DNA of 41,261 bases, taken from positions 1 through 41,261 of the IMG/VR virus record IMGVR_UViG_3300020470_000046, one strand, 5' to 3'. Both the position numbers and the translations under genes were made by a program. Each line of letters begins with the position of its first letter. Position 1 is the stretch's first letter. The notes under the pieces were generated by a model, which was not told the DNA's origin, ran no database searches, and saw only the letters and a program-made list of their open reading frames with translations. Source of the DNA: a virus. Shown one piece after another: positions 8,282 through 28,810 of this stretch.

Positions 8282-11200
8282 TTAAAACCAATTCCATCCG
8301 TTTTGGAATTGTTGTAGCCACGCTTGACATGCGGCATCGCACTGTGTTGCTTCTATAGATGGCTCGTGGGGAACTCCAAAATCTTCAGCAACCTCTATGG
8401 TGAACTGAACTGTCGTCTTGGTTGCTCCCGCTTGATTAAATGCGGGCTCTGTTCCATTTCCATAATCTCTATTAATTACAGTAAACTCGTGCTCCATGGT
8501 ATAAAAGCCCCCGGCACTACCCTCACTCTTAGAAACGTCATTAAACATTTCGTACAGGTTCCAATGGAGGCTACCTTCGTGCATGAGACCCCCTCCGGCT
8601 CCACCAAGTCTACTGCAGTCCTCGCAACCTCCGTCCTGAACGGGCCATGGGCTGGGGCTAGCTATTCGTGCGTGATTCATATTCGTGAAGGAATTCTTGG
8701 TGCCTATACTGCTCATATCTAAATAATCGCACTTGTTTCCGGCAGAACATTTCACAATTGCTGAACCTATTGATCCGGCGTCCGAAGACCTATATATTTT
8801 TGCCGTCCAGTTTGAGACCCATAAAGCGCCAATTCCATTATTAAGCATACTTAACGTATATTTCAATTTCTGATTATCCTTCGATCCTACCGCGTTGCCG
8901 TCAGCGTCCATAATTTCCGAACGCTTTCTAATTGTATACTTTTTAACCTCTTCGGTATCAAGCTGACTTGGGAAAGTCCCCCCACTATTTGAACCGTCAT
9001 CAACCTTCAACTCAATGGTCCAAGAGTATTTACGGTCAGTGGTCCATTTATTTACGTTTTTAAATGTTTCAATCGCTTCACATGTTATAGGTTTGGTTTT
9101 GCCGGTTCCGTCAGACTGCGTTAACTTAACTGCTGGTGCCGAACTCGCATCAAAAGTATTTACAATTTTGCTGCCCAGTTGCATGCGCCACCCCAGCTTT
9201 TCCATTATTACATCATTGGTTGTAGGAAGTATACCTAATTCACTTATGGAGTCATGTTCGTACTCCATGTGTTGCCCGTTAACTCCTCCGTATCCGCCTG
9301 AAACTATGTTTTCTTCGTTTTTTGGGTCCGTGTCTGATCCTATGAAGTTTCTAGTACACCTCCAGCTTGGGTAAATTGAGTGATCATTTACCTCTAGCGA
9401 ACTTTGGCCTCTGCTACTTTTCGCTGTCAGCGGTGTTATGTCTACTTTTTTGCTGTCTGTACCATCAAGATAACACTCGGACTTGAAGGAAGCTTTGAAT
9501 TTATACTTGTTAAAATCATCCGCTGTGTTATTTTTATTGCTTAGAGTTACTTGGTACGTGCCCGCTCCTGTAGTTTCTGTGTCTTGACTTTTTTCTGAGT
9601 CACCATATTTTAATGTGGATTTTGCACAATCGACAGGGTGATCTAGGGCTGTCCAGCCTTTTTTAGCTACTTCTACGCCGCCGACTGTAATTGTTAAATT
9701 GGGTTTTGCCGCATCTGTACCCGAACATACAACACAACTAGCTACGTGTCCTGAAGCGTCAGCGAAATCAGCGGACGAAGAACGAACGGTAGTGTACGAA
9801 TCAAAAATGTCCGTAAACCATCGCTGAATCATGGTGCCTATTTCCGACCCCCCGACATTAAAGTCGCCCTGTTGAAAGTTGGCGTGTCCACCGCCGCCGT
9901 CTTCCAGCCAGTGTTTCTGGAAGGCTTGATAGTTTCCATCACATTTTGCCAAGCGCGCAGACGCACTGTCACCAGCGAGACTTTGCATAAATACTAACAC
10001 CATTCCGGGGGTCGGCTGCCCAGCGTTTGGGCCTTCTCCGCGGGCCGCTTCAGCATATAGGGACAAATCTATAAAAGCTATACCCTTGGTGCCGCTGCCG
10101 GAATAAAAGTCACTTCTCCAGTCTTCTGCTGGATTAGTTTTGTGAGTCCAGAAGCAATCACCCTCGGAGGATCCGCTATCATCCACGTTCAGTTGGTTAA
10201 AAGAAAACGCTGACGAGCCCCCCGAGGAGTGCGCGTTCCATTGTCTCCAAGCGTCTTGACTAGTTAAACCTACCATAAAGTTGTCCGGTAAGCGGATAGT
10301 CTTATTCTTATCCCACTCGGTCGACTGAACGGCTGCACAATTAGGTAATTGACCAAGCACGGCAAATTCCGGAGTGTTAGCTACCGTTACTGTCGCTGTA
10401 AATGTTGCCGTTTCACTTCCAGTTCCGGTAAGTGTTTCTGTGGGTGTAAGTGTGCCGGTTTCTGTCGCGGTGAAAGTCTCGGTATCTGTAAGCTGATCCG
10501 TAACTGTGGCAGTACTAGTAAACGTACTTGTAAATGTCGGTGAGAAACTTGACGTTTCCGTGCCGGTTAACGTCACTGTTGCCGTGTCTGTCGCGGTAAA
10601 AGTTGGCGTAACTTCTGTAGCTGTTACTGTTGCCGTTAAGGTTTCTGTGCCGGTTGTAGTCTCCGTCCATGTTGGGTCAAAAGAATGAGTCGCTGTATAT
10701 GTAGCCGTACTTGTTGGGCAAAATTCACCGCAAGCTTGCTGGGCGCCACTAAGGCTCTTCGCGTATTTTGTGTTCGAATAAGTATCTCCACTACCCCATA
10801 AATAATCTGCCTGAGTCCAAGGTCCCGTGACGCTATCGCCATACAACCATGGGTCACAGGTGGCGACGTTGGATGACGCAGTTTCAAATACTAAATAGCA
10901 CTCTCCGTCAATTTTTACGGGTACAACATAATCTCTATTTACGCCGGAGCAGCCAGTCGAACCGCCGGTCCAACCAAGAACATTATTTACTTTATCATGA
11001 ATGGCTGCTCTAAGAGTGGCGTTCTGCACAATTGGAATGAATAGCTTATACTCAGTCAAGCCGCTGAGGCTCGATGCTGTCGCAACTTCAGAACACCTCC
11101 ATGCTTTAGCGCTTGCAGCAAAAGACAATGTCTGAGTTGCTGTATAGCTTGCCGTTCCTGAAGCTGTTTCTGTAGCGGTTTCTGTTGTCGTTTCTGTCGC

Positions 11201-12142
11201 CGTATACGTTGGGGTATCACTTACCGTCGCCGTTTCTGTCGCGGTTGCCGTTTCTGTATTCGTACTGGTTTCCGTTGTTGTTTCTGTCGCCGTATACGTT
11301 GGGGTACCAGTTCCTGTCGCCGTCTCTGTCGCAGTTGTTGTATTTGTACTGGTTTCCGTTGTCGTTTCTGTCGCCGTATACGTTGGGGTATCACTTACCG
11401 TTGCCGTTTCTGTCGCTGTGAATGTCGCCGTCTCAGAAGGCGTAGAGAGAGTGGCTGTAGCTGTCGATGTAAAAGTATAACTATGCTCCTCTGTTACAGT
11501 CTCGGTAGCTGTATGCGTAAATGTCGGTGAGTAACTTTCTGTCGCCGTAGCCGTGGTGGTTGAGCAACCGCACTCAACTTTATCCGATTCGCTTGGGGTG
11601 GGTAATGGTTTGCTTGGGCTACCTTTCCAAAGTGCCTCATAACTCCAGTCACACAGGGCTGTAGACTTAAGGCTACCAGTGGAAAACCACGTTTCAACAG
11701 TGGTCTGATCGCAAGTGCAATCATCACTACCTGTATAATCTATATCATAAGCGTTATCACCCTCGAAGCCGCCCTCATCAAGCTCTGCTACGCTCTCGCA
11801 AGGATCAGTAATAGCCGCGCCAGATGGATCACTGGTATCTCTGTAATAGTAATAACAAAAAGTACCATGAACGTCAGTCTGCCCAGTATCCGCAGACTCA
11901 TTTCCAATGTACCATGTACCCTCTGGGAAGGTAGCAGCGGGGCGGGAGCAATCTAGACCCATAAAGTCTACTTTAATCTTACCCGCTCTGGCGGTAGTTG
12001 AGCCATCATCTAAAGTACAAACAGTAGTACCTATTGGAAAAGTTTCGTAGCCATTGCTATCCGTGCTTACCGTCGCAGTATGGCCCGAGCAATACCTTTT
12101 TACCCTATATACAAATAAGCAATTTTTACTGGAGCACGACAT
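8282..12142 (-). CDS. 1286-aa Thr-rich, mucin-like protein, probable virion or adhesion protein
   Basis: No family is recognised. The order of parts is clear. Residues 1-190 form a Cys-rich globular domain. Residues ~192-345 are a Thr/Glu/Ala tract made of TATET-type units. Residues ~345-468 form a second globular domain with Cys and Trp that may be a diverged copy of the first (both end in a CDxxxY...CxxxC-like stretch leading into Thr-rich sequence). Residues ~469-591 are a second Thr-rich tract, and ~592-1286 are a large C-terminal domain with Cys pairs. There is no signal peptide. Such tracts usually act as extended, often O-glycosylated, spacers. The gene lies directly upstream of the 2099-aa gene, and the genome encodes several sugar-transfer enzymes, so glycosylation of the tract is an inference worth testing. 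The start lacks a good Shine-Dalgarno sequence. Confidence 0.6.
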   Translation of the reverse strand: MSCSSKNCLFVYRVKRYCSGHTATVSTDSNGYETFPIGTTVCTLDDGSTTARAGKIKVDFMGLDCSRPAATFPEGTWYIGNESADTGQTDVHGTFCYYYYRDTSDPSGAAITDPCESVAELDEGGFEGDNAYDIDYTGSDDCTCDQTTVETWFSTGSLKSTALCDWSYEALWKGSPSKPLPTPSESDKVECGCSTTTATATESYSPTFTHTATETVTEEHSYTFTSTATATLSTPSETATFTATETATVSDTPTYTATETTTETSTNTTTATETATGTGTPTYTATETTTETSTNTETATATETATVSDTPTYTATETTTETATETASGTASYTATQTLSFAASAKAWRCSEVATASSLSGLTEYKLFIPIVQNATLRAAIHDKVNNVLGWTGGSTGCSGVNRDYVVPVKIDGECYLVFETASSNVATCDPWLYGDSVTGPWTQADYLWGSGDTYSNTKYAKSLSGAQQACGEFCPTSTATYTATHSFDPTWTETTTGTETLTATVTATEVTPTFTATDTATVTLTGTETSSFSPTFTSTFTSTATVTDQLTDTETFTATETGTLTPTETLTGTGSETATFTATVTVANTPEFAVLGQLPNCAAVQSTEWDKNKTIRLPDNFMVGLTSQDAWRQWNAHSSGGSSAFSFNQLNVDDSGSSEGDCFWTHKTNPAEDWRSDFYSGSGTKGIAFIDLSLYAEAARGEGPNAGQPTPGMVLVFMQSLAGDSASARLAKCDGNYQAFQKHWLEDGGGGHANFQQGDFNVGGSEIGTMIQRWFTDIFDSYTTVRSSSADFADASGHVASCVVCSGTDAAKPNLTITVGGVEVAKKGWTALDHPVDCAKSTLKYGDSEKSQDTETTGAGTYQVTLSNKNNTADDFNKYKFKASFKSECYLDGTDSKKVDITPLTAKSSRGQSSLEVNDHSIYPSWRCTRNFIGSDTDPKNEENIVSGGYGGVNGQHMEYEHDSISELGILPTTNDVIMEKLGWRMQLGSKIVNTFDASSAPAVKLTQSDGTGKTKPITCEAIETFKNVNKWTTDRKYSWTIELKVDDGSNSGGTFPSQLDTEEVKKYTIRKRSEIMDADGNAVGSKDNQKLKYTLSMLNNGIGALWVSNWTAKIYRSSDAGSIGSAIVKCSAGNKCDYLDMSSIGTKNSFTNMNHARIASPSPWPVQDGGCEDCSRLGGAGGGLMHEGSLHWNLYEMFNDVSKSEGSAGGFYTMEHEFTVINRDYGNGTEPAFNQAGATKTTVQFTIEVAEDFGVPHEPSIEATQCDAACQAWLQQFQNGWNWF
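10380..10720 (-). repeat. Second Thr-rich low-complexity coding tract
   Basis: This stretch encodes about 115 residues of degenerate T-x-T units (TFTATDTATVTLTGTETSS type). The units are less regular than the upstream tract, with no exact long repeat seen. It separates the middle domain from the C-terminal domain of the 1286-aa protein and is probably an extended stalk. Confidence 0.7.
11191..11390 (-). repeat. Tandem 84-90 bp coding repeats in first Thr-rich tract
   Basis: Three copies of an identical 26-bp core start at 11191, 11281 and 11365, giving periods of 90 and 84 bp (30 and 28 codons). Each unit encodes a peptide of the type TPTYTATETTTETSTNT. The periods are multiples of three, so length change keeps the frame. 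Near-identity at third codon positions suggests recent duplication or ongoing slippage. Confidence 0.85.
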
Positions 12143-12729: not shown

Positions 12730-13827
12730 TTATGCTTTTTTTAGGACGTCTCTGAATTTATTAAATAGGTATTTACCAATATCTTTATTTTCCTCAAAGT
12801 ACTTACGAAGATTGTCCATGCCTTGGTGCTGCTTTTTAAGCTCGAGCTTGGTCTCTTTTTTAACCTCTTCTATTAACTCGTCTGAAATTGTAACCCACGC
12901 CCCTTTTGCCTTGGCCATATCCCAAGCGATAAGCATGTCCACCACTTCATATTCCACCCATATACTTTTACCTGATGCAGCGTGGTACCTAATCGGGTAA
13001 CGGACTTCTACTCCGGTTTTTTCGTTTGTAGACTTGCGAAAAATTATTCTGCACCAGTGGCCGAGTTGGTCTCCTTTACCGCTTGGCTGCGTTGTAATCA
13101 AATCTTTATTCCACCTTTGCTGGAACTCTAATATCCAATCACTATAATGCAACATTGCGTTGCCACCGGATGCGTTCGTCAGACGCGGGTCAGTTTTTTC
13201 GTAAGGGTTGATAGACACCTTTGTTCTAACCTGAGAAATCATATAACAGATATGGCCTCGCGTTGCTAATCCTAGCGCCATGCGCTTTAAAAAGTCTGAA
13301 CTTAGGAGTGAACCTCCCGCCACTTTGATTGCTTCGTCTGCGCCTTTTTCTAAATCACCCCTAGGAACCAAAGCGTCCATAGAATCAATGATAAACATGT
13401 ATCTTGTGTCAGAAGGATTATCCTTAACCATTTGTCGCATAAAATCAATAACAGCCTCATATACATTACATTTAAAAATAAACCATTTATCTTCATCTGT
13501 ACTTATACCTGACCTTTCTATCATTTCAGCAGAGAGTCTACCTTCTGACTTAATATAGATAACCATTGCGTTATCCATTTTTTGAAAATTGCGAGCAAAG
13601 GCTAAGGCACACGAAGTTTTTCCGCCTTCAGACACACCTGAAGCGCGTATGATTCCCGGTTTGATTCCTCCACCCATCTCAATATCCAACAGTAAGCTTC
13701 CACTGGAAACATTATAAGTTCTCTCTTCTTCAAAGTTATAATGATCACCCTTGTGCTGTTCAAGGTAAGCTTGGATTTGCTGCTGGGGAGATATGGCTGG
13801 CCCGTCGTTAGTTTTCTTTCTTGCCAT
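12730..13827 (-). CDS. RecA/UvsX-like recombinase
   Basis: This 365-residue ATP-dependent strand-exchange protein catalyses homologous pairing during phage replication and repair. The RecA core starts near residue 40 ('SSGSLLLDIEMGGGIKPGI'). Walker A is GVSEGGKTS (64-72), altered from the cellular GPESSGKTT, as is common in phage proteins. Walker B is 'MFIIDSMDAL' (~143-152). The motif 'SQVRTKVSINPYEKTDPRLTNASGGNA' type region corresponds to RecA loop L1/L2. The first ~38 residues and the Lys-rich C-terminus are phage-specific. Its start overlaps the upstream hypothetical gene by 20 bp. Assignment to the RecA superfamily is firm; UvsX versus RecA subgroup is open. Confidence 0.92.
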   Translation of the reverse strand: MARKKTNDGPAISPQQQIQAYLEQHKGDHYNFEEERTYNVSSGSLLLDIEMGGGIKPGIIRASGVSEGGKTSCALAFARNFQKMDNAMVIYIKSEGRLSAEMIERSGISTDEDKWFIFKCNVYEAVIDFMRQMVKDNPSDTRYMFIIDSMDALVPRGDLEKGADEAIKVAGGSLLSSDFLKRMALGLATRGHICYMISQVRTKVSINPYEKTDPRLTNASGGNAMLHYSDWILEFQQRWNKDLITTQPSGKGDQLGHWCRIIFRKSTNEKTGVEVRYPIRYHAASGKSIWVEYEVVDMLIAWDMAKAKGAWVTISDELIEEVKKETKLELKKQHQGMDNLRKYFEENKDIGKYLFNKFRDVLKKA

Positions 13828-14179
13828 CTCTTATAAAATCCAAAAGATTCTTTTTCTTATTAATCTCTTTATCTGTACCTAATTTACCATACATCTGTAC
13901 AGAAGTCAAGTTATCTTTATACTTCATGTTCATGAGTTTCTTTTTGGATTGCAAAAACTCTAGACCTTCATCGGTGGTAAAATATGACGGACACTGCACT
14001 TTGAAATTACAGTTAATAAACATCCAGTCCCAAAACTCTGGGTCTGGGTTAACAGCGTAAGCCTTTATCGCTTGATTCAGCTTGGCTCCGTAAGTACCTT
14101 TCTCATACTCGCAGAACTGGCTAACGATTAACCTATGGTAGTCTGTAGGACTCTTCTTTTTGTCTGTTTTTAATATCAT
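13808..14179 (-). CDS. Hypothetical 123-aa protein
   Basis: No family is recognised. It is a small, charged, soluble protein with Lys-rich ends, one 'PDPEFWDWMF' aromatic stretch and three cysteines. It overlaps the gmd-like gene upstream by 47 bp and the recombinase downstream by 20 bp, so it is embedded in the leftward operon and probably coexpressed with the recombinase. Only one plausible upstream ATG exists. It may be a recombination accessory factor, but this is position-based only. Confidence 0.6.
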   Translation of the reverse strand: MILKTDKKKSPTDYHRLIVSQFCEYEKGTYGAKLNQAIKAYAVNPDPEFWDWMFINCNFKVQCPSYFTTDEGLEFLQSKKKLMNMKYKDNLTSVQMYGKLGTDKEINKKKNLLDFIRDGKKEN

Positions 14180-15224
14180 GTTTCACCATCTTTTCTACAA
14201 GGGTATCAAAGTTCCCCTCTGGAGTCCAGCCTAATTCTTCAATAGCTTCCGTCGGATCACCCATTAGCTGTTCTACTTCGGCTGGCCTATAGAACTCTGG
14301 GTTAATTTTAACTAGTGTGTATTTGTGGGGTCCGGCATTTTTAACATATTTTTCGTCTAAGCCTTCACCTTCCCAGTAGCCTTTTAGGTCTCCGGCTTCA
14401 AACGCTTTTTCTACAAACTCTCTAATTGAGTGCATTTCTCCACTGGCTAGCAAATAGTCTTTAGGATCATTTTGGTTTAACATTAACCAAATCCCTTTAA
14501 CGAAGTCCTCGCTGTCACTCCAATCTCTTTTTGCGTCTAAATTTCCTAACTCAATAGGCGTGTGTTTTTTAGGTTGATCGTGCCTGTCACTCCAGCACTG
14601 TTGCTGCCTAATCTGGTGAGACAGCTTGGCTACACCCATTGTAATTTTTCTAGTTACAAACTCCTCGCCCCGCTTGGTGCCTTCGTGATTAAATAAAAGC
14701 CCATGTACTGCGTACATGTCGTAAGACTCGCGGTAGACTTTAACTATATGGTGTGCTGCGCATTTGGAGGCTCCGTAGGGACTTCTAGGCTTCATTGGGT
14801 GCTTCATGTCTTGCGGGGAATAGTCTACATCCCCAAACTCTTCGCTGCTACCCGCACTGTAGAACCTGCAGTCTGGAGCGTAGCTTCTGATTGCTTCAAG
14901 GCATCTAATAACGCCCATGGAGTTTACGTCAAATACGTGCACTGGCATATCCCAGCTAACACCAACAAAGCTATTTGCCGCAAAATTAATAAAATAATCT
15001 GGCTTGATATCTTTTACTAGTTCATTGATGCTTACTTCGTCTGTTAAGTCTCCTAACACCAGTTTAAAGTTCTTGTTCTTCTTAAACTTTAATATGTTAT
15101 CGTAATTTGGGTTTGCGACCCTCCTCATCATGCCGTAGACATGGTTAGACTTGTCTCGCAAAAGGTACTCGGCCATATTAGCACCGTCTTGACCCAAGAT
15201 GCCCGTGATAATTATCTTTCTCAT
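14133..15224 (-). CDS. gmd: GDP-mannose 4,6-dehydratase (short-chain dehydrogenase fold)
   Basis: The enzyme would convert GDP-D-mannose to GDP-4-keto-6-deoxymannose, the precursor of fucose, rhamnose and related sugars. In the 363-residue protein the NAD(P) loop is GILGQDG (8-14), the active-site SSEEFG lies near 126-131 and the catalytic Y150xxxK154 reads YGASK; the C-terminal 'EFYRPAEVEQLMGDPTEA' segment is typical of Gmd. I chose the ATG at 15224 rather than an upstream one at 15281 because it follows the nrdB stop by one base and gives the correct N-terminus. Its presence in a phage implies sugar-nucleotide synthesis for virion or host-surface glycan. Specificity for GDP-mannose over another NDP-hexose is likely but not proved. 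Confidence 0.88.
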   Translation of the reverse strand: MRKIIITGILGQDGANMAEYLLRDKSNHVYGMMRRVANPNYDNILKFKKNKNFKLVLGDLTDEVSINELVKDIKPDYFINFAANSFVGVSWDMPVHVFDVNSMGVIRCLEAIRSYAPDCRFYSAGSSEEFGDVDYSPQDMKHPMKPRSPYGASKCAAHHIVKVYRESYDMYAVHGLLFNHEGTKRGEEFVTRKITMGVAKLSHQIRQQQCWSDRHDQPKKHTPIELGNLDAKRDWSDSEDFVKGIWLMLNQNDPKDYLLASGEMHSIREFVEKAFEAGDLKGYWEGEGLDEKYVKNAGPHKYTLVKINPEFYRPAEVEQLMGDPTEAIEELGWTPEGNFDTLVEKMVKHDIKNRQKEESYRLP

Positions 15225-15225
15225 A

Positions 15226-16239
15226 TCAAAAATCGTCTTCCAACATACCAGAACTCTGGTAGTCTTTAACCTTTCTTTCAAAAAAGTTAGTCATTGCTCC
15301 CGTGTCAACAACTTCAGAGAGCCATGGAAAGGGGTTTTGGTCGCTATCGAAACGAAAGTCTATACCTATCCCTTCCAGTCTTCTGTTTCCTATATACTGC
15401 ATGTAGTCCACAAACATCTCCGCGTTAAGCCCTAGAATTCCGTGAGGTAGTACGTCATGGGCGTATTGAACTTCTAATTCTACCGCTTGTTTTATGTGGT
15501 TTACGGTTTCTTGTTCAAACTTCTTTGTCCATACTGATGGGTATTGCTCCTTAATAGTATTGATTAAATAAGTTCCAAATTGAATATGAAGGCTTTCATC
15601 TCGCAGAGTATAACGAATTTGATCGGATAGACCGGGTAGTTTATTTTGTCTACCAAGCGCAAGCAGCATTGCAAAACCACTAAAAAAGAATGTGCCTTCG
15701 CAAACAATATAATAACTAATTAGGTTCCTGAGAAATTCCCTTTTTCCTTCCACTGTTTTTGTTGAAAAATCTTGACGATTCACATCTGTCGTGATTTGCA
15801 TTAAAAAGTCATCTTTAGCTTTAATACTTGGTATGTTTAAATAAGCTTCGTAAACTTCATTCACTTTTAAAGAATAAGAATCGCAACACGTTACTACGGT
15901 CCAGTTATGCAGCGACTCTTCGTAGGCTTGACGAAGGATATACTGTCTACATTCCGGATCCGTTACGAACCTGTTAACGCTAAGCAACAGATTGTTTGCT
16001 ACTAAAGATTCTGAGCCAGCAAAAAAGCCCATGCACCTTTTAACTAAAAGCTTTTCGTCGTCAGTCAAGAGATCTGATTTCCACTGATCCACGTCATCAC
16101 TCATGTTGATCTCTGCGGGGGACCAATTATTAGCTACCCCTTTTAAAAAAAGATCCCAAGCAAATTTATGCTTGTGGGGTAAAATTTGATTTACGCCCGC
16201 AACCTCTTCACCTAAAACTAACCCGCTTTTCGTGCTCAT
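15226..16239 (-). CDS. nrdB: Class I ribonucleotide reductase beta subunit, radical Tyr replaced
   Basis: This is the metal-containing radical-generating subunit that works with NrdA to make dNDPs for phage DNA. Aligned by spacing to E. coli NrdB, the metal ligands are E77, E108, H111, E181, E215 and H218 (spacings 31, 3, 34 and 3 match). The radical-tyrosine position (four residues after H111) is V115, within EESLHNWTVV, so no Tyr radical can form there. The first ligand is Glu rather than Asp. Both traits recall class Ic/Id beta subunits that use Mn/Fe or Mn2 cofactors. The gene lies 3 bp after the 100-aa gene and is separated from nrdA by three genes. Family assignment is secure; the subclass is inference. 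Confidence 0.95.
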   Translation of the reverse strand: MSTKSGLVLGEEVAGVNQILPHKHKFAWDLFLKGVANNWSPAEINMSDDVDQWKSDLLTDDEKLLVKRCMGFFAGSESLVANNLLLSVNRFVTDPECRQYILRQAYEESLHNWTVVTCCDSYSLKVNEVYEAYLNIPSIKAKDDFLMQITTDVNRQDFSTKTVEGKREFLRNLISYYIVCEGTFFFSGFAMLLALGRQNKLPGLSDQIRYTLRDESLHIQFGTYLINTIKEQYPSVWTKKFEQETVNHIKQAVELEVQYAHDVLPHGILGLNAEMFVDYMQYIGNRRLEGIGIDFRFDSDQNPFPWLSEVVDTGAMTNFFERKVKDYQSSGMLEDDF

Positions 16240-16242
16240 AAT

Positions 16243-16545
16243 TTAAATTTGTTCGTTGTTATTCTCTATAATTTTTTGACGCTCTTCTTCCGACAAGTCA
16301 CTTTCCAGAACTCTCTGCCCATCCGGCTTGTAGTAATCTGGGAAAGGAACGTTGCCTTCTCCGCCAAATTTTTGATCTAAGATTTGTTTTAAAATACTTT
16401 TAATCAAAACATCTTCTTGATGCTCGCTGTCTATTTTAACTAAATCCTGATAAATTTGCAAGCATAAACCAGCTTGATCTGTAAAATCTCCATCTGAAGC
16501 TTTTAAGTTACTTTCTTCTGACAATTTAATTGTGTATTCAATCAT
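16243..16545 (-). CDS. Hypothetical 100-aa acidic protein
   Basis: No family is recognised. It is an acidic, mostly helical-looking protein with 'QIYQDLVKIDSEHQEDVLIKSILKQIL' type amphipathic sequence. Its ATG overlaps the stop of the FkbM-like methyltransferase by 8 bp and it ends 3 bp before nrdB, so it is cotranscribed and likely coupled to both. Position next to nrdB is not enough to assign a role. Confidence 0.6.
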   Translation of the reverse strand: MIEYTIKLSEESNLKASDGDFTDQAGLCLQIYQDLVKIDSEHQEDVLIKSILKQILDQKFGGEGNVPFPDYYKPDGQRVLESDLSEEERQKIIENNNEQI

Positions 16546-17152
16546 ATAATTTAACCCTTTCTACGCACTCTTCCCATGTTAAATTTTTACCTCCTATATT
16601 ATTATATACGTTTTCACTGAAATAAGCAGGATTAATCCACCAGTCTTCCCAAGGGGCTCCTTCCCTTTTTGGAAGTGTAACGTCTTCAAATAGCATGCGG
16701 TATCCATTTTTTGTTAATAGCTCTCTCTGTTTCGAACGAAGACTGTCTCCATGTCGGTAAAAATCGTGCTCTATCGTCATTGTTTTAAATTTAATTTCAG
16801 CAAAAATAATTTGCTTTAAGCAGTCTACTGAGCCTTGATCTATATCTAATGATATGTAGTCTACGTTTTTTGGTACATATCTAATCAGTAGGTCTCTAAA
16901 TTCTACCGTAGTACAATCTATCCTTATTACTTTATTAAGCCTTCTTCTGGCGTGCTTTCTTGAGATAGTGCTGTCTCCGTGAGCTATATCAAAAAGTAAA
17001 CCGTACCAGCCTTCCAATTCTAATAGCTTGGAGTTACTGCCTGTGCCCTTGGTTCTGCTAGGATTGCATCCAATATCTAAAAAGTAACCCACTTTACCCT
17101 TGTTCATATAATAAGCAAATAGGTCTTGCCCTTGGTAAGAGTAACTTTTCAT
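16538..17152 (-). CDS. FkbM-like SAM-dependent methyltransferase
   Basis: This 204-residue protein starts with 'SQGQDLFAYY'-type sequence (here SYQGQDLFAYYMNKG) and a SAM-binding loop FLDIGCNPS (24-32), then 'NVDYISLDIDQGS' and 'IEHDFYRHGD', all typical of FkbM/Methyltransf_21 enzymes that methylate sugars or small molecules. Its start overlaps the upstream methyltransferase stop by 4 bp (ATGA). With gmd, GTs and a second methyltransferase nearby it probably decorates a glycan. The substrate is unknown. Confidence 0.78.
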   Translation of the reverse strand: MKSYSYQGQDLFAYYMNKGKVGYFLDIGCNPSRTKGTGSNSKLLELEGWYGLLFDIAHGDSTISRKHARRRLNKVIRIDCTTVEFRDLLIRYVPKNVDYISLDIDQGSVDCLKQIIFAEIKFKTMTIEHDFYRHGDSLRSKQRELLTKNGYRMLFEDVTLPKREGAPWEDWWINPAYFSENVYNNIGGKNLTWEECVERVKLYD

Positions 17153-17778
17153 GACTTACGATATTTTAGGTCATTAGTTTTAATAAATTTCCAGCTATAT
17201 TCTGAGTAAGTTTTACCAGAGGGGGCTCCTAGTACTCCTTCGCCGGGTGCGTCACCAAGTAACGCCATGAGCGCTCTGTAAACTTTAGGGTCTCTGTAGT
17301 CGTGTCCGGAGATAACTCCGCCAGTTTTTACTTTCGGGGTCCAAGTCAATATGTCCTCCGTAACGGCCTCCGTTTTGTGAAGGCCATCTATGTATACCAT
17401 ATCTATAGACTCATCTTCAAAAAGTTTAGACGCCTCAACGCTGAAATTCTGAATGGCTTCAACATTGCTGTAGTTTTCAAATCTGGTATTAAATTCAACT
17501 CGAGCGTATGATTGAGGCATGGAAAAAGCTCCCTCTTTGTAGTCTGTGAGTAAATCCCAAGGGTCAACAGCATATATTTTTTTACAATGCAAAGCAAACA
17601 GTTCCGTAGACACTCCTCTGTGGGAGCCTATTTCCACCATAACTGTATCTTTTGATACGCAGTCCTTTATTAAGTCATACAGGCCTCCTAGTCTATTGCC
17701 CCTTATCGCAATTGGGCTTTGGAGTGCGCCATTGCTGACCATACGCTCTTCTTTCAGTAGTTCTTCTAACCTTTTCAT
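17149..17778 (-). CDS. Class I SAM-dependent methyltransferase (Methyltransf_24-like)
   Basis: The 209-residue protein has motif I VMVEIGSHRGVSTE (46-59), an acidic residue after strand 2 in 'IYAVDPWD', and 'DMVYIDGLHKTEAVTEDI' followed by 'GGVISGHDY'. The D-G-x-H and GGxxxGHDY signatures are shared with Methyltransf_24 and CmcI-type enzymes, commonly found in glycan and antibiotic clusters. Its ATG overlaps the nrdA stop (TAATG). It forms a coupled pair with the next methyltransferase. The likely substrate is a sugar or sugar-nucleotide; this rests on context. Confidence 0.78.
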   Translation of the reverse strand: MKRLEELLKEERMVSNGALQSPIAIRGNRLGGLYDLIKDCVSKDTVMVEIGSHRGVSTELFALHCKKIYAVDPWDLLTDYKEGAFSMPQSYARVEFNTRFENYSNVEAIQNFSVEASKLFEDESIDMVYIDGLHKTEAVTEDILTWTPKVKTGGVISGHDYRDPKVYRALMALLGDAPGEGVLGAPSGKTYSEYSWKFIKTNDLKYRKS

Positions 17779-20252
17779 TATTGACAGCTTTCACACGTGG
17801 GGTCTAAGATACTACAAGCCTGAGGAGAAGGCAAATTGTCATTATCACTATTTGTATCACTATTATCCACGTTACTTTCTTCTTTAGAGACTTCTGTCGA
17901 TTTTTCAATTTCGCTTGCACTTTTATTCCTTAGGTAATACGTGCTCTTTAGGCCGCAATTTCTTGCATGCATGTATAAATCATTTAAATATTTTAATGAG
18001 GTACTGTTGTTAAATAAGTTTAACGACTGACCCATGTCAATCCATTTTTGTTTTGCTGCTGCAGCTTCAATTAATTTGAACTGATCATGGTCAAAAGCTG
18101 TACGATAGCGATCTTTAATATCCTGAGGTATTTCTCCATTTAATCTTAATACGTCTCCATTGACCGTCTTAAGCATTCCTATAAGTGTTGGATTCCATAT
18201 ATTTAATTTTTTACATTCCCTTACAAACCATTCATTCGTAATAAAAAGGTTTCCACTTTTATTTTCATATACAAAAAGAGTCGAAAAATCTGGCTCAACA
18301 GAAGGCGAACAACCTTGTATGTAAGATATAGTAGCAGTAGGAGCGATAGCCATAGTATTACTGTTGCGCATACCGTGATTAGCAATATGGTCCCGTAAAA
18401 CTTTCCAATCGCATTTTGGTGCATACTTTTTATCCCTATAGTTGATGGGTTTTTGCTCTAAATATTTCATTAGGGACTTGTAGGTGTCCATTGGTAAAAT
18501 ATTTTGACTCCAGAGCGAGCCGTCATAGGTGCTGTATGCGCCTTTTTCCTTTGCGATTTTACTGGAATTCAAAATGCAATTATAAGAAATAAACTCGTAT
18601 AACTCTTCCGAAAATCTAACCGCCTCGTCGGACGAAAAATTTACTTTATAAGAATGAAATACGTCAGCCCAGCCCATTGTTCCTGCTCCAACTGGGCGGT
18701 GTTTCATGTTGGCATTTTCAGCTTCTTTAGTAGGGTAAAAATTTAAATCAATAACATTATCCAGCATTCTCATTTGGATAGCTATGCTCTTTGCTAATTT
18801 ATTATAGTCTAGTTTGCCGCTATCTTTCAAGTGCTCTTTTAAGTTAATTGAGCTCAAATTGCACACCGCAGTTTCTCCCACCTCAACTTTTTCGCCCTGT
18901 TTAAAGAGCGATGGTTTTGTGTGTAGAAAGATTTCTGTACAAAGGTTAGAGCTATGAACTACCCCCTCGTGAGAGTTAGAGTATCTGAGGTTTGCGTTGT
19001 CCTTAAAGGTCATCCAAGGGTGGCCAGTTTCGAAAAGAGCTCTAAGCATCTTCTTCCATAGGTCTTTAGCTTTTATGACTTTAAAGTTTTTTATGGTTCC
19101 TTTATCGGCCTTCTTGCAATATTTAGCGTACGCCTTATCAAAGTTTTCTCCGTAGAGTTCGTGGAGATCTCTGACGTCTGACGGGCTAAACAGATACCAG
19201 TCTCCATCTGATTGAACTCTACGAAGAAATAAATCGGGAAGCCAATTGGCTGTATTCATGTCGTGGCAACGGCGGCGCTCATCTCCAGTGTTCTTTTTTA
19301 AATCAAGAAAGCTTTCAATGTCTAGATGCCAAGGCTCAAGATATGCGCAACCGGCACCGGGGCGCTTACCGCCTTGATTAACTGCCACAAGAAGGTCATT
19401 GTAAATTTTAAGCCAAGGAATGAGCCCACTAGAGGACCCATTTGTTCCTTTAATGTACGAGCCGGAAGATCTAAAGTTTGTAACGTCAAAACCTAATCCA
19501 CCCGCAAACTTTGATTTCCTAGCTTCTTGCCATGCTCCTTCAAAGATTCCGTCAATGGAATCGTCAAAAGTATTAAGATAGCAAGAGCTAAGCTGGGAGC
19601 GTACAGAGCCACTATTAAATAAGGTCGGGGTTGATGGACAAATTCTAAATGAGGAAATAGCGTGATAAAATTCGATTGCTTTTTCTTCTTTATTTTTTTC
19701 ATTTAGGGCCAGTCCCATGGCTACCCTCATCCAAAAGGCTTGGGGAGCCTCCATTCTTGTTCCTTCTATGTGATGGAAGTAACGATCATATAAAATCTGT
19801 AATCCAAGGTACTTAAACTTATAGTCTCTATCAAGAACTAGAGCTTCTGATAGTTTTTTCAGATCATAACTCAGGAGTTTTTTATTTAAGATATCCTGCT
19901 TGACTAGTTTTTTAACATTCCTTATAAAAGAAAGTCTGTACTGATGTTCGAAGGCGTCTTTATCTCTGCTTTCGGCGAAAACTTCCTTGTGGATATTTCC
20001 CAGTAGTAGTCTAGCTGCTACGTAGGTATAGTTTGGCTCTTTTTCTATTTTGGTACGAGCCGACATGATTAACGCTTGATCAATCTCTTTAGTTGTGATC
20101 TTATCGTAAAACTGAACCTCCGCATCGAGAACTACCTCGCTTGCTGAAACATCATCTAAAGCGTCACAGGCTCTGGTAGCACATAGGTTTATTTTATTGA
20201 TATCTAAGTTTTCTAATCGTCCGTTTCTTTTTTTTACGTGAAGTGTGTCCAT
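17778..20252 (-). CDS. nrdA: Class I ribonucleotide reductase alpha subunit
   Basis: The 824-residue catalytic subunit reduces NDPs to dNDPs. An ATP-cone allosteric domain covers ~1-95 (HVKKRNGRLENLD...). Catalytic residues are all present by alignment to E. coli: C224 and C464 (redox pair), N436/C438/E440 (NLCTE), the Y772-Y773 radical-transfer pair, and a C-terminal CESC at 820-823 that receives electrons from thioredoxin or glutaredoxin. A Ser/Asn/Asp-rich linker precedes the tail. The presence of the ATP cone suggests retained overall-activity regulation by dATP. A 106-bp gap upstream holds possible promoter sequences. No intein or intron interrupts it. Confidence 0.97.
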   Translation of the reverse strand: MDTLHVKKRNGRLENLDINKINLCATRACDALDDVSASEVVLDAEVQFYDKITTKEIDQALIMSARTKIEKEPNYTYVAARLLLGNIHKEVFAESRDKDAFEHQYRLSFIRNVKKLVKQDILNKKLLSYDLKKLSEALVLDRDYKFKYLGLQILYDRYFHHIEGTRMEAPQAFWMRVAMGLALNEKNKEEKAIEFYHAISSFRICPSTPTLFNSGSVRSQLSSCYLNTFDDSIDGIFEGAWQEARKSKFAGGLGFDVTNFRSSGSYIKGTNGSSSGLIPWLKIYNDLLVAVNQGGKRPGAGCAYLEPWHLDIESFLDLKKNTGDERRRCHDMNTANWLPDLFLRRVQSDGDWYLFSPSDVRDLHELYGENFDKAYAKYCKKADKGTIKNFKVIKAKDLWKKMLRALFETGHPWMTFKDNANLRYSNSHEGVVHSSNLCTEIFLHTKPSLFKQGEKVEVGETAVCNLSSINLKEHLKDSGKLDYNKLAKSIAIQMRMLDNVIDLNFYPTKEAENANMKHRPVGAGTMGWADVFHSYKVNFSSDEAVRFSEELYEFISYNCILNSSKIAKEKGAYSTYDGSLWSQNILPMDTYKSLMKYLEQKPINYRDKKYAPKCDWKVLRDHIANHGMRNSNTMAIAPTATISYIQGCSPSVEPDFSTLFVYENKSGNLFITNEWFVRECKKLNIWNPTLIGMLKTVNGDVLRLNGEIPQDIKDRYRTAFDHDQFKLIEAAAAKQKWIDMGQSLNLFNNSTSLKYLNDLYMHARNCGLKSTYYLRNKSASEIEKSTEVSKEESNVDNSDTNSDNDNLPSPQACSILDPTCESCQ

Positions 20253-20358
20253 ATTAACCCGTGTTCCTTACTCTAATTAATTTACAGCTTTTCCGATTAA
20301 AAGGAAAGAAAAAAAGCTTAACAAGCAAAGAAAAAATAAAAAAAGTTTATAGCGTGTA
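20253..20358 (-). promoter_or_regulatory. Intergenic region upstream of nrdA
   Basis: This 106-bp AT-rich gap holds a T-rich stretch just past the FmdB-like gene, a weak sigma70-like pair (TTGTTA, N17, TTTAAT) and a CTGTAAATTAATTAG sequence that differs by one base from the GTGTAAAT motif. A possible AAGGA ribosome-binding site is 13 bp from the ATG. No single element is convincing. Confidence 0.3.
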
Positions 20359-20730
20359 CTAAGACTTTTTATTTTTAGCGTTAGACTCAGCTATTGCCTT
20401 ACGCCGCCTCTTTTTTACTGCGTCGTGTGAGTCTTTTCTCTTTTTTTCGTGTTCGTTTTTTACGTGGTCCTCACCTCTTTTTGATAACCTTTTCTCACTT
20501 AATTCTTTAGAGTAGTCCCACATATCACCCGCGTTCCAACCAGATGTTTTTCTCACAAATTGATCTGAGGAGTCCATGTCCGAGTTCATGCCCATGGCCG
20601 CGTTAGGCGCGCTCCACACCCTTTCGTACTTCACTCCACTTTCGTCTATATAAGTATGATCATCGCTCATTTTTTGAACGACTTCAATGATATCGCCCGT
20701 CTTGGGGTTTCGATATTGATATATAGGCAT
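20359..20730 (-). CDS. FmdB-like small protein with degenerate zinc ribbon
   Basis: The first ~45 residues (MPIYQYRNPKTGDIIEVVQK) match the MPIYEYxCxxCG start of FmdB-type zinc ribbons, but the two Cys pairs are replaced (RNPKTG in place of RCPxCG). The remainder is highly charged, with Lys/Arg/Glu-rich sequence that may bind nucleic acid. I chose the ATG at 20730 because MPIYQY is the family start and it overlaps the glycosyltransferase stop (TAATG); an upstream start at 20754 would add eight residues. Proteins of this type are common small phage genes of unknown role. Confidence 0.65.
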   Translation of the reverse strand: MPIYQYRNPKTGDIIEVVQKMSDDHTYIDESGVKYERVWSAPNAAMGMNSDMDSSDQFVRKTSGWNAGDMWDYSKELSEKRLSKRGEDHVKNEHEKKRKDSHDAVKKRRRKAIAESNAKNKKS

Positions 20731-21824
20731 TACAAGTTTTCTAGCTCGAACCAAACTCTGTCCAGCATTTTTCCGTAAGAGAATTCATTTTGTAATTTTA
20801 ATCCTTCATGGTTTACTTTATCGGTTTCGACCCTTTTGATGGCTTCTTCACAGGCATCGATAAAATCATCCTCATCCCAGTCAAACATCTGACCCTGATT
20901 GAACTCTTGCCCTTTTTTGAAAAAGATATTATCTACGCAGTCAATCTTTCCTGAGGGCTCCACTAGAACACTATTTTTTTCATTAGCCCACCCTTTGTAG
21001 GCGTGGGCGTCTAGTATAACGCCATGTTTTCCGAGGGCTAAACCTTGAAACTCGGGCAGTCCCCAGCCTTCCCCGCCAGACATTCCTATTGAAATATCTC
21101 CTGAGTTTATATAGTCATTGTACTCGGAGTTTTTAGACATGTATGGTAGAAATACTACATTAAAATATTTCTTATGCCCCATTGCTCTTGCAACTAGTTC
21201 GTTATTATCTTGGGGGCTAAGAAATGGGTTGAATAAGGCGCAGTGTAAAAATACTTTTTTATTATTTCCGTATTTTTTTACCCAAGCAGAAAGTACTTTC
21301 TCGTGATGTTTTCTAAATTCAAACTTGCCTGATAGCGTAAATACTATCCTGTCGTCATCATAATACTGTTTATCGAGGGGTGAGAAGTTATTGGAGTCAA
21401 AGCCTAATGGCATATACTTTACATTGTCTAATCCCTTGCTTTTAAAAATGTCTACTGCGTACTCAGACGACATGAGAACTAGTCGTTGTTGTTTAAGTAT
21501 GTTTAGTTCTGTGTCTGTTGGGTCGTCTAACTCATAAAAAGTTAATAGAGCCTGTTTATCGCTCAAAAAACCAATAGAACCATTGATGTGCCATAATCTG
21601 AAGGTAGGATGAACTCTTGCGTCGTGAGACTTTTGAAAATCTTTAACTGTCAAGTCTAGCCATTTTTGAAAGTTGACCGGAGGATCTTGAGAACTAAGGT
21701 CAATTTTTTCTCCAATGGGGACAAGGGAGAGTCCCATTTCCCTGTTGTAGGCTTCTCGCAGCAACGCTACTGAGACTTGGCCAAAGGAAACGCTGTTGAC
21801 TGGACAGTTAAAAGTTAATTTCAT
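20730..21824 (-). CDS. GT4-type glycosyltransferase (GT-B fold)
   Basis: The 364-residue enzyme has the GT1/GT4 C-terminal donor-binding signature 'GGEGWGLPEFQGLALGKHGVI' (EX7E-like, about 253-275), preceded by 'FTLSGKFEFRKHHEKVLSAW' (start of the C-terminal Rossmann domain). The N-terminal half would bind the acceptor. It would transfer a sugar from a nucleotide donor. The start overlaps the DUF736-like stop by one base. Neighbouring gmd, methyltransferases and other GTs suggest a shared glycan. Donor and acceptor are unknown. Confidence 0.85.
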   Translation of the reverse strand: MKLTFNCPVNSVSFGQVSVALLREAYNREMGLSLVPIGEKIDLSSQDPPVNFQKWLDLTVKDFQKSHDARVHPTFRLWHINGSIGFLSDKQALLTFYELDDPTDTELNILKQQRLVLMSSEYAVDIFKSKGLDNVKYMPLGFDSNNFSPLDKQYYDDDRIVFTLSGKFEFRKHHEKVLSAWVKKYGNNKKVFLHCALFNPFLSPQDNNELVARAMGHKKYFNVVFLPYMSKNSEYNDYINSGDISIGMSGGEGWGLPEFQGLALGKHGVILDAHAYKGWANEKNSVLVEPSGKIDCVDNIFFKKGQEFNQGQMFDWDEDDFIDACEEAIKRVETDKVNHEGLKLQNEFSYGKMLDRVWFELENL

Positions 21825-22093
21825 TACAGGAGATCTTCTTGCTGTTCGGCAGAGGAATCTGACTGCGTTGCTCCTTCCTGCTGCGCTTCTTGGCGCGGCT
21901 CAGACTTGTATACTCTAAAGTCTGGTTGGTTATCTTTGGTCTTATTCTTGTTAGAGAAAATGACCACTTGTTGCTCAGTGCCATCGGCACCCTTCATTTT
22001 GCCCGTAAGATACTTTTGATTACGACCTTCGCGTTTCCACAAAGCTCCAATTTCCCTTTCGGACCACTCGTTATTTTTTGGTGTATCACTCAT
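21824..22093 (-). CDS. DUF736-like small protein
   Basis: The 89-residue product has 'SEREIGALWKREGRNQKYLTGKMK' and 'NKTKDNQPDFRVYKSE', which resemble the strands and the PDFRV motif of DUF736 proteins, followed by a Gln/Ser/Glu-rich tail. The fold resembles small ssDNA-binding-like beta proteins but the function is not known. I start it at 22093 rather than at 22144, because a TTGACA/TATCGT promoter lies between the two and ends 9 bp before this ATG, and because an N-terminal SDTPKNN is more typical. It is followed directly by the GT4 gene. An acidic tail after a small beta domain is also seen in single-strand binding proteins. Confidence 0.6.
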   Translation of the reverse strand: MSDTPKNNEWSEREIGALWKREGRNQKYLTGKMKGADGTEQQVVIFSNKNKTKDNQPDFRVYKSEPRQEAQQEGATQSDSSAEQQEDLL

Positions 22094-22102
22094 GTTATCA
22101 AA

Positions 22103-22131
22103 ACGATACCTTATATCCACTCCTATGTCAA
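22103..22131 (-). promoter_or_regulatory. Sigma70-like promoter of DUF736-like gene
   Basis: Leftward TTGACA (22131-22126), 17 bp, TATCGT (22108-22103), 9 bp, ATG. Perfect -35 box and spacing. The expected transcription start is within about 3 nt of the ATG, so a leaderless or near-leaderless message is predicted. It lies inside the end of the upstream gene. Confidence 0.6.
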
Positions 22132-23048
22132 GAGGAATATACATTTTTTGTAATGTTCACAAAAGCTCTTACTGTATTTAGGGAATCTTTTTCTAGTTCT
22201 TCTAGTCGTTCCTTTACTAAATGCTTGGTTTCTTTGGCGTGATTAATTTTATCTGCGCCGTAGGCTATTCCAGCACTCCAAACCGGTGACCTTGAAGAAA
22301 AGTATTCCTCTTCATTTTTCTTACTTCTGCTGATTATGATTGAATTGCAGCCGCATAAAGCGGCTAGAACTAATAGGTATGTATCTTCATCGTATGAATA
22401 AAGATTTTCATACTTATTAAATATTTTGGGTAAAATTGTAAAAGCGTCATCACTTAAGGTTTCTGCTTCTACGCTAACTGCGCCGTCTGGTAGAGGATCG
22501 CGGTAACCGGCATTACCCTTTCTGGTTATATAGCAAGATCCCGACCTTTCGGGATCATTGTAATTTTTAAAAACGTCAAAATTATTGTAAATTGTTGTTA
22601 ACCTATTAGCAATCTCAAAACCATATTTTTTTTGGGTGCCTTCTGCTATCCAGTCAGCGTAAGCAAAATAAAGTTCTGAATCTGGGTTCCACTTGCTTGG
22701 AACTTTCCAGTTATGAAAACCGGGGTAATGCAAGAGCCATCTTACCACGCGTTTGGATTTAAGTGGGTTTCTGGTTGTTACCTCTGGGTATATCGCCACG
22801 TAATCTGATAAATCTTTATCGGTTACAATTTCACCTTTATCATTCCACCCCTCGGTAAGAAAATCGGAATCTACTAAATTGTCTTGCAGTCCCGGAAGGG
22901 GTATGGTTTGTTTTGGTTTTTCTGATAGATATACTTCTTCACCGAGACTTCTTAAGTCGTGAAACAATTTATACATTGCAATACACCCACCGCATTTAAA
23001 AATGCTAGGGGTATTCATTGAGTCAGTGTTAAATATAACGTATTTCAC
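22128..23048 (-). CDS. Putative glycosyltransferase (GT-B like)
   Basis: The 306-residue protein begins 'MKYVIFNTDSMNTPSIFKCGGC', contains 'VVRWLLHYPGFHNWKVPSKW' and 'ELYFAYADWIAEG', and ends with 'ENLYSYDEDTYLLVLAALCGC', which resembles the donor-binding strand-helix of capsule and LPS glycosyltransferases. The start is GTG, three bases after the TauD-like gene stop. The fit to a named family is weaker than for the GT4 gene downstream. It is likely part of the same sugar-transfer set. Confidence 0.6.
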   Translation of the reverse strand: MKYVIFNTDSMNTPSIFKCGGCIAMYKLFHDLRSLGEEVYLSEKPKQTIPLPGLQDNLVDSDFLTEGWNDKGEIVTDKDLSDYVAIYPEVTTRNPLKSKRVVRWLLHYPGFHNWKVPSKWNPDSELYFAYADWIAEGTQKKYGFEIANRLTTIYNNFDVFKNYNDPERSGSCYITRKGNAGYRDPLPDGAVSVEAETLSDDAFTILPKIFNKYENLYSYDEDTYLLVLAALCGCNSIIISRSKKNEEEYFSSRSPVWSAGIAYGADKINHAKETKHLVKERLEELEKDSLNTVRAFVNITKNVYSS

Positions 23049-23051
23049 AAA

Positions 23052-23810
23052 TTAACTGATTCTCCACATGGATTGGAGTAATATTCTATCTTTTGGCTTC
23101 TCGGCCTTAAAAGAGGTGCGGGCATGCAGTAGGCGTTGGTCATTAAAAGCGAACGCGTCTCCACTTTCGGCTCTTAGTTTAAAAACTGAACTGCTTTCTC
23201 TTTGTACTTGTAGGAAAGAAAAAAATCTTTCGCACAGTTCGTTTACAAACGCGTCAGTTTTAATAGTTCTGTAATAATTCCAGTGTGTTTTATATCCAGT
23301 TTCGTCATTTGTGATAATCTTGGTGACGTTTTGGTTATCATCTGCGCCCTTACTTATGGTGACTTCTGTGTTTAAGAGGTCATTAAGGAGTGTTTGGTCT
23401 GCAACTTCTAGATCTTGTATTAATCTAGATACTGGGTAAATGAGTTGTTCCCCTCCTTCAGCTACTTGTTTTTTCATGATAAAGAAATTAACTTCGGCAG
23501 CGTCGCCAAACCAAGCGTTATCATTATGAAAAGGCTGAGGTGTTGTGCTATGTGCGTAACTACTTTCTTTGTCTGGTTGGTTTGATATTTCCCACCACTT
23601 TGCTTGTTGTAGGTTTTCATCAAAATCGTATTGCCTGTGGTCTAGAGTTAAGCCGCATTTTTCTGACAAGAACTTACCCCAATAGTTTCTGTTTCTGACT
23701 TCGTTATGTGCGCCTCTTATTACTAGTGGGTACTCTTCGTTCTCGAGCGCTAGTAATAGTTCTGGTAAGTCTTTTTCTATTTCCTGTGCATAGTGTAATT
23801 GTTTAGTCAT
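23052..23810 (-). CDS. TauD/TfdA-type Fe(II)/2-oxoglutarate dioxygenase
   Basis: The 252-residue protein has the facial triad H95-x-D97 in PFHNDNAW and distal H229 in 'NDQRLLHARTSF', with R242 positioned to hold 2-oxoglutarate. This family hydroxylates or desaturates diverse small molecules, using iron and oxygen. It overlaps the WbqC-like stop by 8 bp and lies in the sugar operon, so a tailoring reaction on a glycan, amino sugar or linked amino acid is a reasonable inference. TauD-like taurine catabolism is unlikely in this context. The substrate is unknown. Confidence 0.8.
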   Translation of the reverse strand: MTKQLHYAQEIEKDLPELLLALENEEYPLVIRGAHNEVRNRNYWGKFLSEKCGLTLDHRQYDFDENLQQAKWWEISNQPDKESSYAHSTTPQPFHNDNAWFGDAAEVNFFIMKKQVAEGGEQLIYPVSRLIQDLEVADQTLLNDLLNTEVTISKGADDNQNVTKIITNDETGYKTHWNYYRTIKTDAFVNELCERFFSFLQVQRESSSVFKLRAESGDAFAFNDQRLLHARTSFKAEKPKDRILLQSMWRIS

Positions 23811-24474
23811 TTAATTTATATTCCTTTATTTTTTCTAACGTTTCTTCCTTGCTATGGTTCATCATATGGTCTACTACTGATAATGAAGGTCTCGTATTTA
23901 TGAATTTTAATTCAATGTTATTTTTATTGAACTGCTCTTTACTGTATAATTCTCTGCCGCCCATTGGGTTTACATATGTGCTGACTCCTTCTCTTTTGCA
24001 AATATCTATTATTCTTTCTTGTCCTTTTAAGCCATTTTTAGGATAAACCGAAGAGCTATCAACGAACTCCACGCTTAGTTTTAAAAAGCTACATATAGAC
24101 TTAATAGAGTAAAGTAAATATTTGGATAAATTTGTTTCTTTGTTATATATTATATCTGACACAAGACCATTAACATTATTAAATCTAGCGCATTTTTTGC
24201 TGTATGCGGCGCTAATTTTGTTTAGCACTTTCTTTTTCCAGTTGTGATCTGCGGATAGGTATAATTCTTTTATTAGTTTATTTTGGCTAGCTTTTTCTAT
24301 GCAGAGGTTTATTTGATGATGTTTGTCATTTAAGTTGATGGTGTTCCTGTGTATCCACCCTTTCTTGATGAAGTTAACGTCATCTAATATCACGAATTTA
24401 TCTACAGAATGTATTAGTTGCCAGTAGCCTAGGTACGGAAAGAAGTAGGGCTGCATTATTGCGATCTTTTTCAT
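23803..24474 (-). CDS. WbqC family protein
   Basis: This 223-residue protein shows the family start 'IAIMQPYFFPYLGYWQLI', then 'FVILDDVNFIKKGWIHRN' and 'TYVNPMGGRELY'. WbqC proteins occur in O-antigen and capsule clusters, often beside DegT aminotransferases, and are thought to act in amino-sugar acylation or glycine transfer; the exact chemistry is not well established. Here the gene overlaps the DegT-like stop by 4 bp, reproducing that bacterial pairing. It has probably been acquired from a bacterial surface-polysaccharide cluster together with its partner. Confidence 0.88.
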   Translation of the reverse strand: MKKIAIMQPYFFPYLGYWQLIHSVDKFVILDDVNFIKKGWIHRNTINLNDKHHQINLCIEKASQNKLIKELYLSADHNWKKKVLNKISAAYSKKCARFNNVNGLVSDIIYNKETNLSKYLLYSIKSICSFLKLSVEFVDSSSVYPKNGLKGQERIIDICKREGVSTYVNPMGGRELYSKEQFNKNNIELKFINTRPSLSVVDHMMNHSKEETLEKIKEYKLND

Positions 24475-26234: not shown

Positions 26235-26240
26235 TTCTTG

Positions 26241-26268
26241 ATGTTACCATATATCTTTGAGAAATCAA
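26241..26268 (-). promoter_or_regulatory. Sigma70-like promoter of dNMP kinase-sigma operon, leaderless geometry
   Basis: Leftward TTGATT (26268-26263), 16 bp, TAACAT (26246-26241), 6 bp, GTG start. No Shine-Dalgarno sequence is seen. It lies in an 86-bp divergent gap opposite the GTGTAAAT promoter of the kinase-fold gene. Confidence 0.5.
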
Positions 26269-26305
26269 GTAATAAGTTCATTCTCGACTTAGTGGCAAAA
26301 AATAA

Positions 26306-26313
26306 GTGTAAAT
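26306..26313 (+). promoter_or_regulatory. GTGTAAAT motif before kinase-fold gene
   Basis: AGTGTAAATATA is followed by the ATG at 26321, 7 bp after the GTGTAAAT core. There is no ribosome-binding sequence between them. The same motif at the same distance precedes the next gene. No good -35 box at 16-18 bp is seen. Confidence 0.5.
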
Positions 26314-26320
26314 ATAGTAC

Positions 26321-27133: not shown

Positions 27134-27144
27134 CAATAAATGCA

Positions 27145-27152: not shown

Positions 27153-27159
27153 ATATTGC

Positions 27160-28805: not shown

Positions 28806-28810
28806 TACAT

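Follow-up and report, generated by a model that had tools for sequence, protein, structure and literature searches.

How a class I ribonucleotide reductase (RNR) could generate its radical without the tyrosine on which class Ia enzymes rely is the question raised by the nrdB gene of the viral record IMG/VR IMGVR_UViG_3300020470_000046. The stretch analysed here, 41,261 nt long and hereafter called the window, is part of a tailed-phage genome; it carries lambda-like tail-tip genes and encodes a DnaB-type helicase, and no tRNA was found within it. The original prediction, made from residue spacing, held that the NrdB product has a valine at the radical-tyrosine position and a glutamate as first metal ligand, and that the phage may reduce ribonucleotides with a manganese-based cofactor, thereby avoiding iron limitation. 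The nrdB open reading frame was verified (337 aa, ATG start; Table 1), and its product matches Ribonuc_red_sm in Pfam (E 2.5e-76) and PRK07209 in NCBIfam, the latter at 442.6 bits, above the model's cut-off. The closest solved structures are NrdB of C. trachomatis (1SYY; phmmer E 3.3e-109) and R2 of S. erythraea (6Y2N; 1.2e-101). The score against the NrdF model is far under its cut-off and no NrdI match was found in 15 long contigs of relatives, all possibly incomplete, and class Ib was rejected on these grounds; no flavodoxin match was found among the window ORFs scanned either.

The phmmer alignment with 1SYY is gap-free around the metal site, with an offset of +12 from window to C. trachomatis numbering up to the C-terminal tyrosine (Y327/Y338), and it pairs the metal ligands as E77/E89, E108/E120, H111/H123, E181/E193, E215/E227 and H218/H230. 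In the same alignment, V115 falls on F127, while W39, F185, Y210 and D214 fall on W51, F197, Y222 and D226, respectively. When NrdB of E. coli MG1655 was included, V115 came to lie on the radical tyrosine (Y122) and E77 on the first aspartate. Thus, the valine and the six ligands beginning with a glutamate, both placed by spacing, were confirmed by alignment with the two reference proteins. Additionally, 8 of the 8 tabulated first- and second-sphere residues (E77, E107, E108, H111, E181, D214, E215 and H218) are those of the C. trachomatis class Ic enzyme. A replacement tyrosine near site 115, the observation that was to speak against the original prediction, was rejected on residue tests, Y122 in the window protein's own numbering being Y, F or L among relatives.

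Table 1. Coordinates of the genes, codons and neighbouring regions discussed in the text
Feature	Coordinates	Strand	Basis or remark
nrdB, class I RNR radical-generating subunit, class Ic type	15226..16239	-	PF00268, PRK07209
Codon 39, Trp39 = C. trachomatis W51 / E. coli W48, electron/radical path	16123..16125	-	alignments
Codon 77, Glu, first metal ligand (class Ia Asp, Ic Glu)	16009..16011	-	alignments
Codons 108-111, metal ligands E108 and H111, motif EExLH	15907..15918	-	alignments
Codon 115, Val, radical-Tyr site (E. coli Y122, C. trachomatis F127)	15895..15897	-	gapless alignment; V/I in 130/130 clade members
Codon 181, metal ligand E181	15697..15699	-	alignment
Codon 210, Tyr210 = C. 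trachomatis Y222, Mn/Fe-activation electron relay	15610..15612	-	alignments; role per PMC4118035
Codons 214-218, D214 (radical path, second sphere), metal ligands E215 and H218	15586..15600	-	alignments
Codon 224, Tyr224	15568..15570
Codon 327, Tyr327 = C. trachomatis Y338, C-terminal radical-transfer Tyr	15259..15261	-	alignments
nrdA, class I catalytic subunit, 824 aa, N-terminal ATP-cone	17778..20252	-	profile matches, residue check
1286-aa Thr-rich protein	8282..12142
Region with many surface-sugar genes	12730..31156
GDP-mannose dehydratase ORF, as listed (TTG start)	14133..15281
Three genes upstream of nrdA	20359..22144
DegT/DnrJ-family ORF	24471..25067

A sequencing error or a chance substitution at V115 can be dismissed, since all 130 distinct members of the clade to which the window gene belongs have valine or isoleucine at this site (Val in 106, Ile in 24, Tyr or Phe in none) and every one has Glu as first ligand. 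This set was reached by additional queries that extended to more distant viruses, and the best 80 of 350 matching IMG/VR viral stretches, together with one genome contig, all showed Val or Ile at this site with Glu as first ligand. Across 171 NrdB sequences the two traits were completely coupled: Tyr occurred with Asp as first ligand in 33 of 33 cases, and Phe, Val or Ile with Glu in 138 of 138 (Phe 8/8, Val/Ile 130/130). Position 114 is Thr in every non-Tyr member and mostly Ala in the Tyr-type NrdBz. Class Ia was therefore rejected, V115 not being Tyr and E77 not being Asp; the NrdBz proteins of that class (Pseudomonas, Acidithiobacillus and Acaryochloris plasmids, and phage vB_PpuM-Peetri), although 42-48% identical to the window NrdB and bearing the same NrdB annotation, have a Tyr radical site and an Asp first ligand. 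Class Ie, in which carboxylate ligands are replaced and Tyr/DOPA is present, was likewise rejected, given that all carboxylates are present here and the Tyr is missing.

A phylogeny had been proposed as a check on the assignment. In two trees, computed without the trait columns (77 and 113-115), the viral Val/Ile clade, with the window gene, grouped with C. trachomatis and the haloarchaeal Phe-type Ic proteins, with support of 100/97 and 99/97. The haloarchaeal Phe group had already been joined to the Chlamydiae by Lundin et al. 2010 (PMC3019208). Because branches are long, support for the precise branching order within the Ic group is weak (SH-aLRT 18 to 52). A rhizobial/S. erythraea Phe group was placed apart from the C. 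trachomatis/haloarchaeal Ic proteins, which gives two changes on the tree, and a single origin of Tyr loss was not rejected (AU p 0.264). The Phe-type groups may thus have lost the Tyr independently, and 'Ic' may not be one lineage.

The partner subunit points to a functional enzyme. The window NrdA scores above the cut-off for NCBIfam PRK07207 and retains the full set of nine catalytic, radical-transfer and C-terminal Cys residues, which is also complete in 115 of 115 full-length relatives. The window nrdA and nrdB are separated by three small genes, of which two are methyltransferase-like; nrdA and nrdB are neighbours in most relatives, with a gap of less than 250 bases in 68 of 133. These observations bear on the idea that NrdB is inactive or has another role, being either an R2lox-like oxidase or a decaying gene. 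E. coli-type NrdB is inactivated by the loss of Tyr122, which would favour this idea, and R2lox models do give weak matches to the window protein. However, the R2lox scores are far under the cut-off and that of PRK07209 is far over it, all residues of the radical path, the C-terminal Tyr among them, vary hardly at all across the clade, the adjacency of nrdA and nrdB is kept in most relatives, and the bulky F185 occupies the position of the R2lox ligand channel (PMC4118035). An inactive or repurposed NrdB is hardly credible in the light of these points, and R2lox identity as such was rejected on residue tests.

The best explanation, with a probability of roughly 0.75, is that nrdB encodes the beta subunit of a complete, working phage class I RNR of the NrdBz/class Ic type, predicted to carry a Mn(IV)/Fe(III) cofactor. 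Its basis at the sequence level is the lack of a radical-site Tyr, Glu as ligand 1, an intact six-ligand dimetal site, the radical path W39/D214/Y327 and an intact NrdA. In the C. trachomatis R2c, Mn occupies site 1 and Fe site 2, O2 leads to a Mn(IV)/Fe(IV) state, and one electron arriving via Y222 and W51 produces the active Mn(IV)/Fe(III) form, the substitute for a tyrosyl radical (PMC4118035); the window NrdB has the residues named in that study for this chemistry. The phage NrdB would bind Mn and Fe in sites 1 and 2, respectively; O2 would take the metals to the Mn(IV)/Fe(IV) state, which a single electron delivered via Y210 and W39 would reduce to Mn(IV)/Fe(III), with the metal cluster rather than a tyrosyl radical storing the oxidising equivalent. 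From there, the oxidising equivalent would travel through W39 and Y327 of NrdB and then the YY pair of NrdA to the NrdA Cys, and the RNR would supply dNTPs for phage replication in infection. Since Y210, W39, F185 and the second-sphere residues are found in Tyr-type NrdBz too and are not diagnostic of Ic, the distinction between Ic and Ia comes down here to Glu77 and the absence of the Tyr, together with Thr114. Sequence cannot reveal which metals are bound, and the Mn/Fe assignment is one that we infer. The part of the original prediction that concerned a Mn-based cofactor without a Tyr radical is nonetheless well supported by inference, as an Ic-type enzyme, through fold, phylogeny, the eight residues, and Y210 and F185 matching C. 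trachomatis.

The predicted structure is consistent with a Chlamydia-like enzyme. An AlphaFold2 model was built from 23 viral sequences (pLDDT 84, pTM 0.85), a single-sequence AlphaFold model (pLDDT 43) having been set aside, and its top structural matches are C. trachomatis NrdB entries, with the Mn/Fe-loaded 4M1I, 4D8F and 4D8G leading (E 6.5e-25, TM 0.88). These are followed by 6Y2N and then, with E-values weaker by many orders of magnitude, by proteins of classes Ia and Id. The class Id NrdBi proteins (F. johnsoniae, L. blandensis, F. ignava) resemble the window NrdB in their Glu first ligand and in leaving a Tyr radical unused, but they are only ~20% identical to it in the structure match, keep the Tyr residue and have a conserved Trp at ligand+7 and usually a Lys at ligand+4, the latter present in characterised members. 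The corresponding residues here are V115, L84 and A81 (Ala or Gly in the clade), and class Id was rejected. The same markers weigh on the alternative that the clade's cofactor differs from that of Chlamydia, for example as a homodinuclear Mn2(IV,III) site like that of class Id, reached by convergence. First-sphere ligands are identical between Ic and Id, class Id is a precedent for a Tyr-independent Mn2 site, and the clade has many private residues and a long branch; on the other hand, the Id markers are missing, the residue preceding ligand 2 is Glu as in Ic and not Cys as in F. johnsoniae, and both fold and tree favour Ic, which makes such a convergent Mn2 site quite improbable.

The Val/Ile clade is essentially all viral in origin and comprises two subclades, that of the window (motif HNWTV) and another at ~74% identity (HNLTV/I). 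A genome search across 84,980 species returned a sole match, a contig of the Woesebacteria MAG ARS1183 (NZCP01000046.1); the genome and viral search patterns detect close relatives only, so that a distant cellular member could be missed. Alongside the viral nrdAB, this contig encodes a phage head-maturation protease and a DNA-polymerase exonuclease. Because of these phage genes it was rejected as a sign that the clade has a cellular source, and it is probably a mis-binned phage contig, that is, binning contamination. Among cultured phages the best identity to the window NrdB is only 42-45%; NrdB of Pseudomonas phage vB_PpuM-Peetri and that of the top-ranked 'Acinetobacter phage' record both have Tyr with Asp, and ordinary bacterial genes lie beside nrdB in the latter.

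Within the clade, Y210 and F185 are conserved, and a fast tree implies at least 17 switches between Val and Ile at site 115, a pattern that fits a packing role for this site and not redox chemistry. Val/Ile115 would then provide aliphatic packing in place of the Phe of other Ic enzymes. The branch leading to the clade is long (1.2-1.6 changes per site), with ~35 clade-specific residues. It is possible, though on balance unlikely, that the Val/Ile clade forms a class I subclass of its own in functional terms, using a cofactor or oxidant unlike that of Chlamydia, with private residues (Y224, V116, T183, F186, T211 and others) that would tune metal choice in marine hosts. Tyr224 is invariant in 130 of 130 Val/Ile-type viral NrdBs, and the position is Asp in all Phe-type Ic and close Tyr-type relatives examined. 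This distribution could be read in favour of a diiron enzyme in which a residue other than the standard Tyr, such as Tyr224 itself, stores the oxidising equivalent; yet this tyrosine lies six residues after H218 and, judging by helix geometry, would be turned from the metals, and Glu as ligand 1 always accompanies Tyr loss, as in Ic. We know of no diiron RNR with such an alternative radical residue, and a diiron cofactor of this kind is highly improbable compared with the Mn/Fe site of the class Ic type.

A marine viral 'subclass Ic-like' clade, with 269 GOV 2.0 alpha sequences adjoining NrdAz, was described in a February 2026 preprint by Harrison et al. (PMC12918982). The beta subunits of this clade carry Ile or Val in place of the radical Tyr, their cofactor was left open, and the group was kept separate because Val/Ile is absent from the Ic references (PMC12918982). 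The window NrdB has the Val radical site, the W48 and Y357 equivalents and the metal ligands; every tested feature fits and no difference was seen, the identity of the two clades resting on the published description. Therefore, the Val/Ile feature is already known and the window gene is not a new discovery; what is new with respect to PMC12918982 is that the beta subunit is placed with the Ic proteins of Chlamydia and haloarchaea, that the Asp/Glu coupling is complete, that class Id can be excluded on the markers of that class and that the active site is matched in full. In the literature consulted, no purified member of the clade is reported. The class Ic definition given in 2019, with Phe, Leu or Val at the radical site (PMC6370689), is one that V115 satisfies; it conflicts with the 2026 text of the same group, which has only Phe or Leu in the Ic references (PMC12918982).

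The C. trachomatis class Ic NrdB (R2c; 1SYY, 4M1I) is ~50% identical to the window protein and shares with it the eight metal-site residues, the W51/Y222/D226/Y338 path, the fold, the Glu first ligand and the lack of a radical Tyr. It differs in its Phe127 and in a His at the 113 position, where the window clade has Val/Ile and Trp or Leu, respectively; the clade is, in addition, viral and set apart by its private residues. The Cyano SP/class O RNR of cyanophages P-SSP7 and S-CBP4 is also a phage class I-like enzyme, and in the P-SSP7 beta subunit, too, the radical Tyr is missing and the first ligand is Glu. However, P-SSP7 NrdB is shorter and divergent, with Asp at the Glu107 position, and its alpha subunit comes from another clade.

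The surroundings of the two genes were also recorded. Read from its listed TTG start, the GDP-mannose dehydratase ORF shares 56 bases with nrdB, and an in-frame ATG at 15224, directly past the nrdB stop, is the likelier true start. This ORF lies in a region with many surface-sugar genes, namely GDP-mannose dehydratase-like, FkbM-type and other methyltransferases, WbqC, a TauD-like dioxygenase, a DegT-like aminotransferase and a GT9-like glycosyltransferase. The DegT/DnrJ-family ORF may be a shortened or decayed aminotransferase, as it is only 198 aa long and matches a 360-position profile in two separate stretches. Upstream of nrdA lie genes for a 131-aa weak Zn-ribbon, a 364-aa glycosyltransferase-like and a 106-aa DUF736-like protein; among about 68 close relatives, they are retained in 63, 52 and 43, respectively. 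Elsewhere in the window, the 1286-aa protein has long Thr-rich (TxTxT) tracts and adjoins a 2099-aa protein, both without a Pfam match.

The last step of the original prediction, the avoidance of iron limitation, is possible but finds no support in the present evidence, because the Mn/Fe cofactor still contains iron, one per Mn(IV)/Fe(III) site. A relation between R2c and iron limitation is offered as speculation in PMC4118035, where assembly is efficient only with substoichiometric Fe. The only field data on the Ic-like clade and iron are those of PMC12918982, in which the group is anti-correlated with predicted iron, no single trace metal explains the pattern and the observations are perhaps too few.

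For the NrdB family, the pairing of Asp with Tyr versus Glu with a non-Tyr residue provides a clear rule for sorting its members from sequence. For marine viruses, these results link a widespread RNR clade to an enzyme class in which the oxidising equivalent is stored in a Mn/Fe centre. Confirmation of the cofactor would mean that many marine phages need both manganese and iron in their hosts and produce DNA precursors with no tyrosyl radical open to quenching by nitric oxide or other scavengers.
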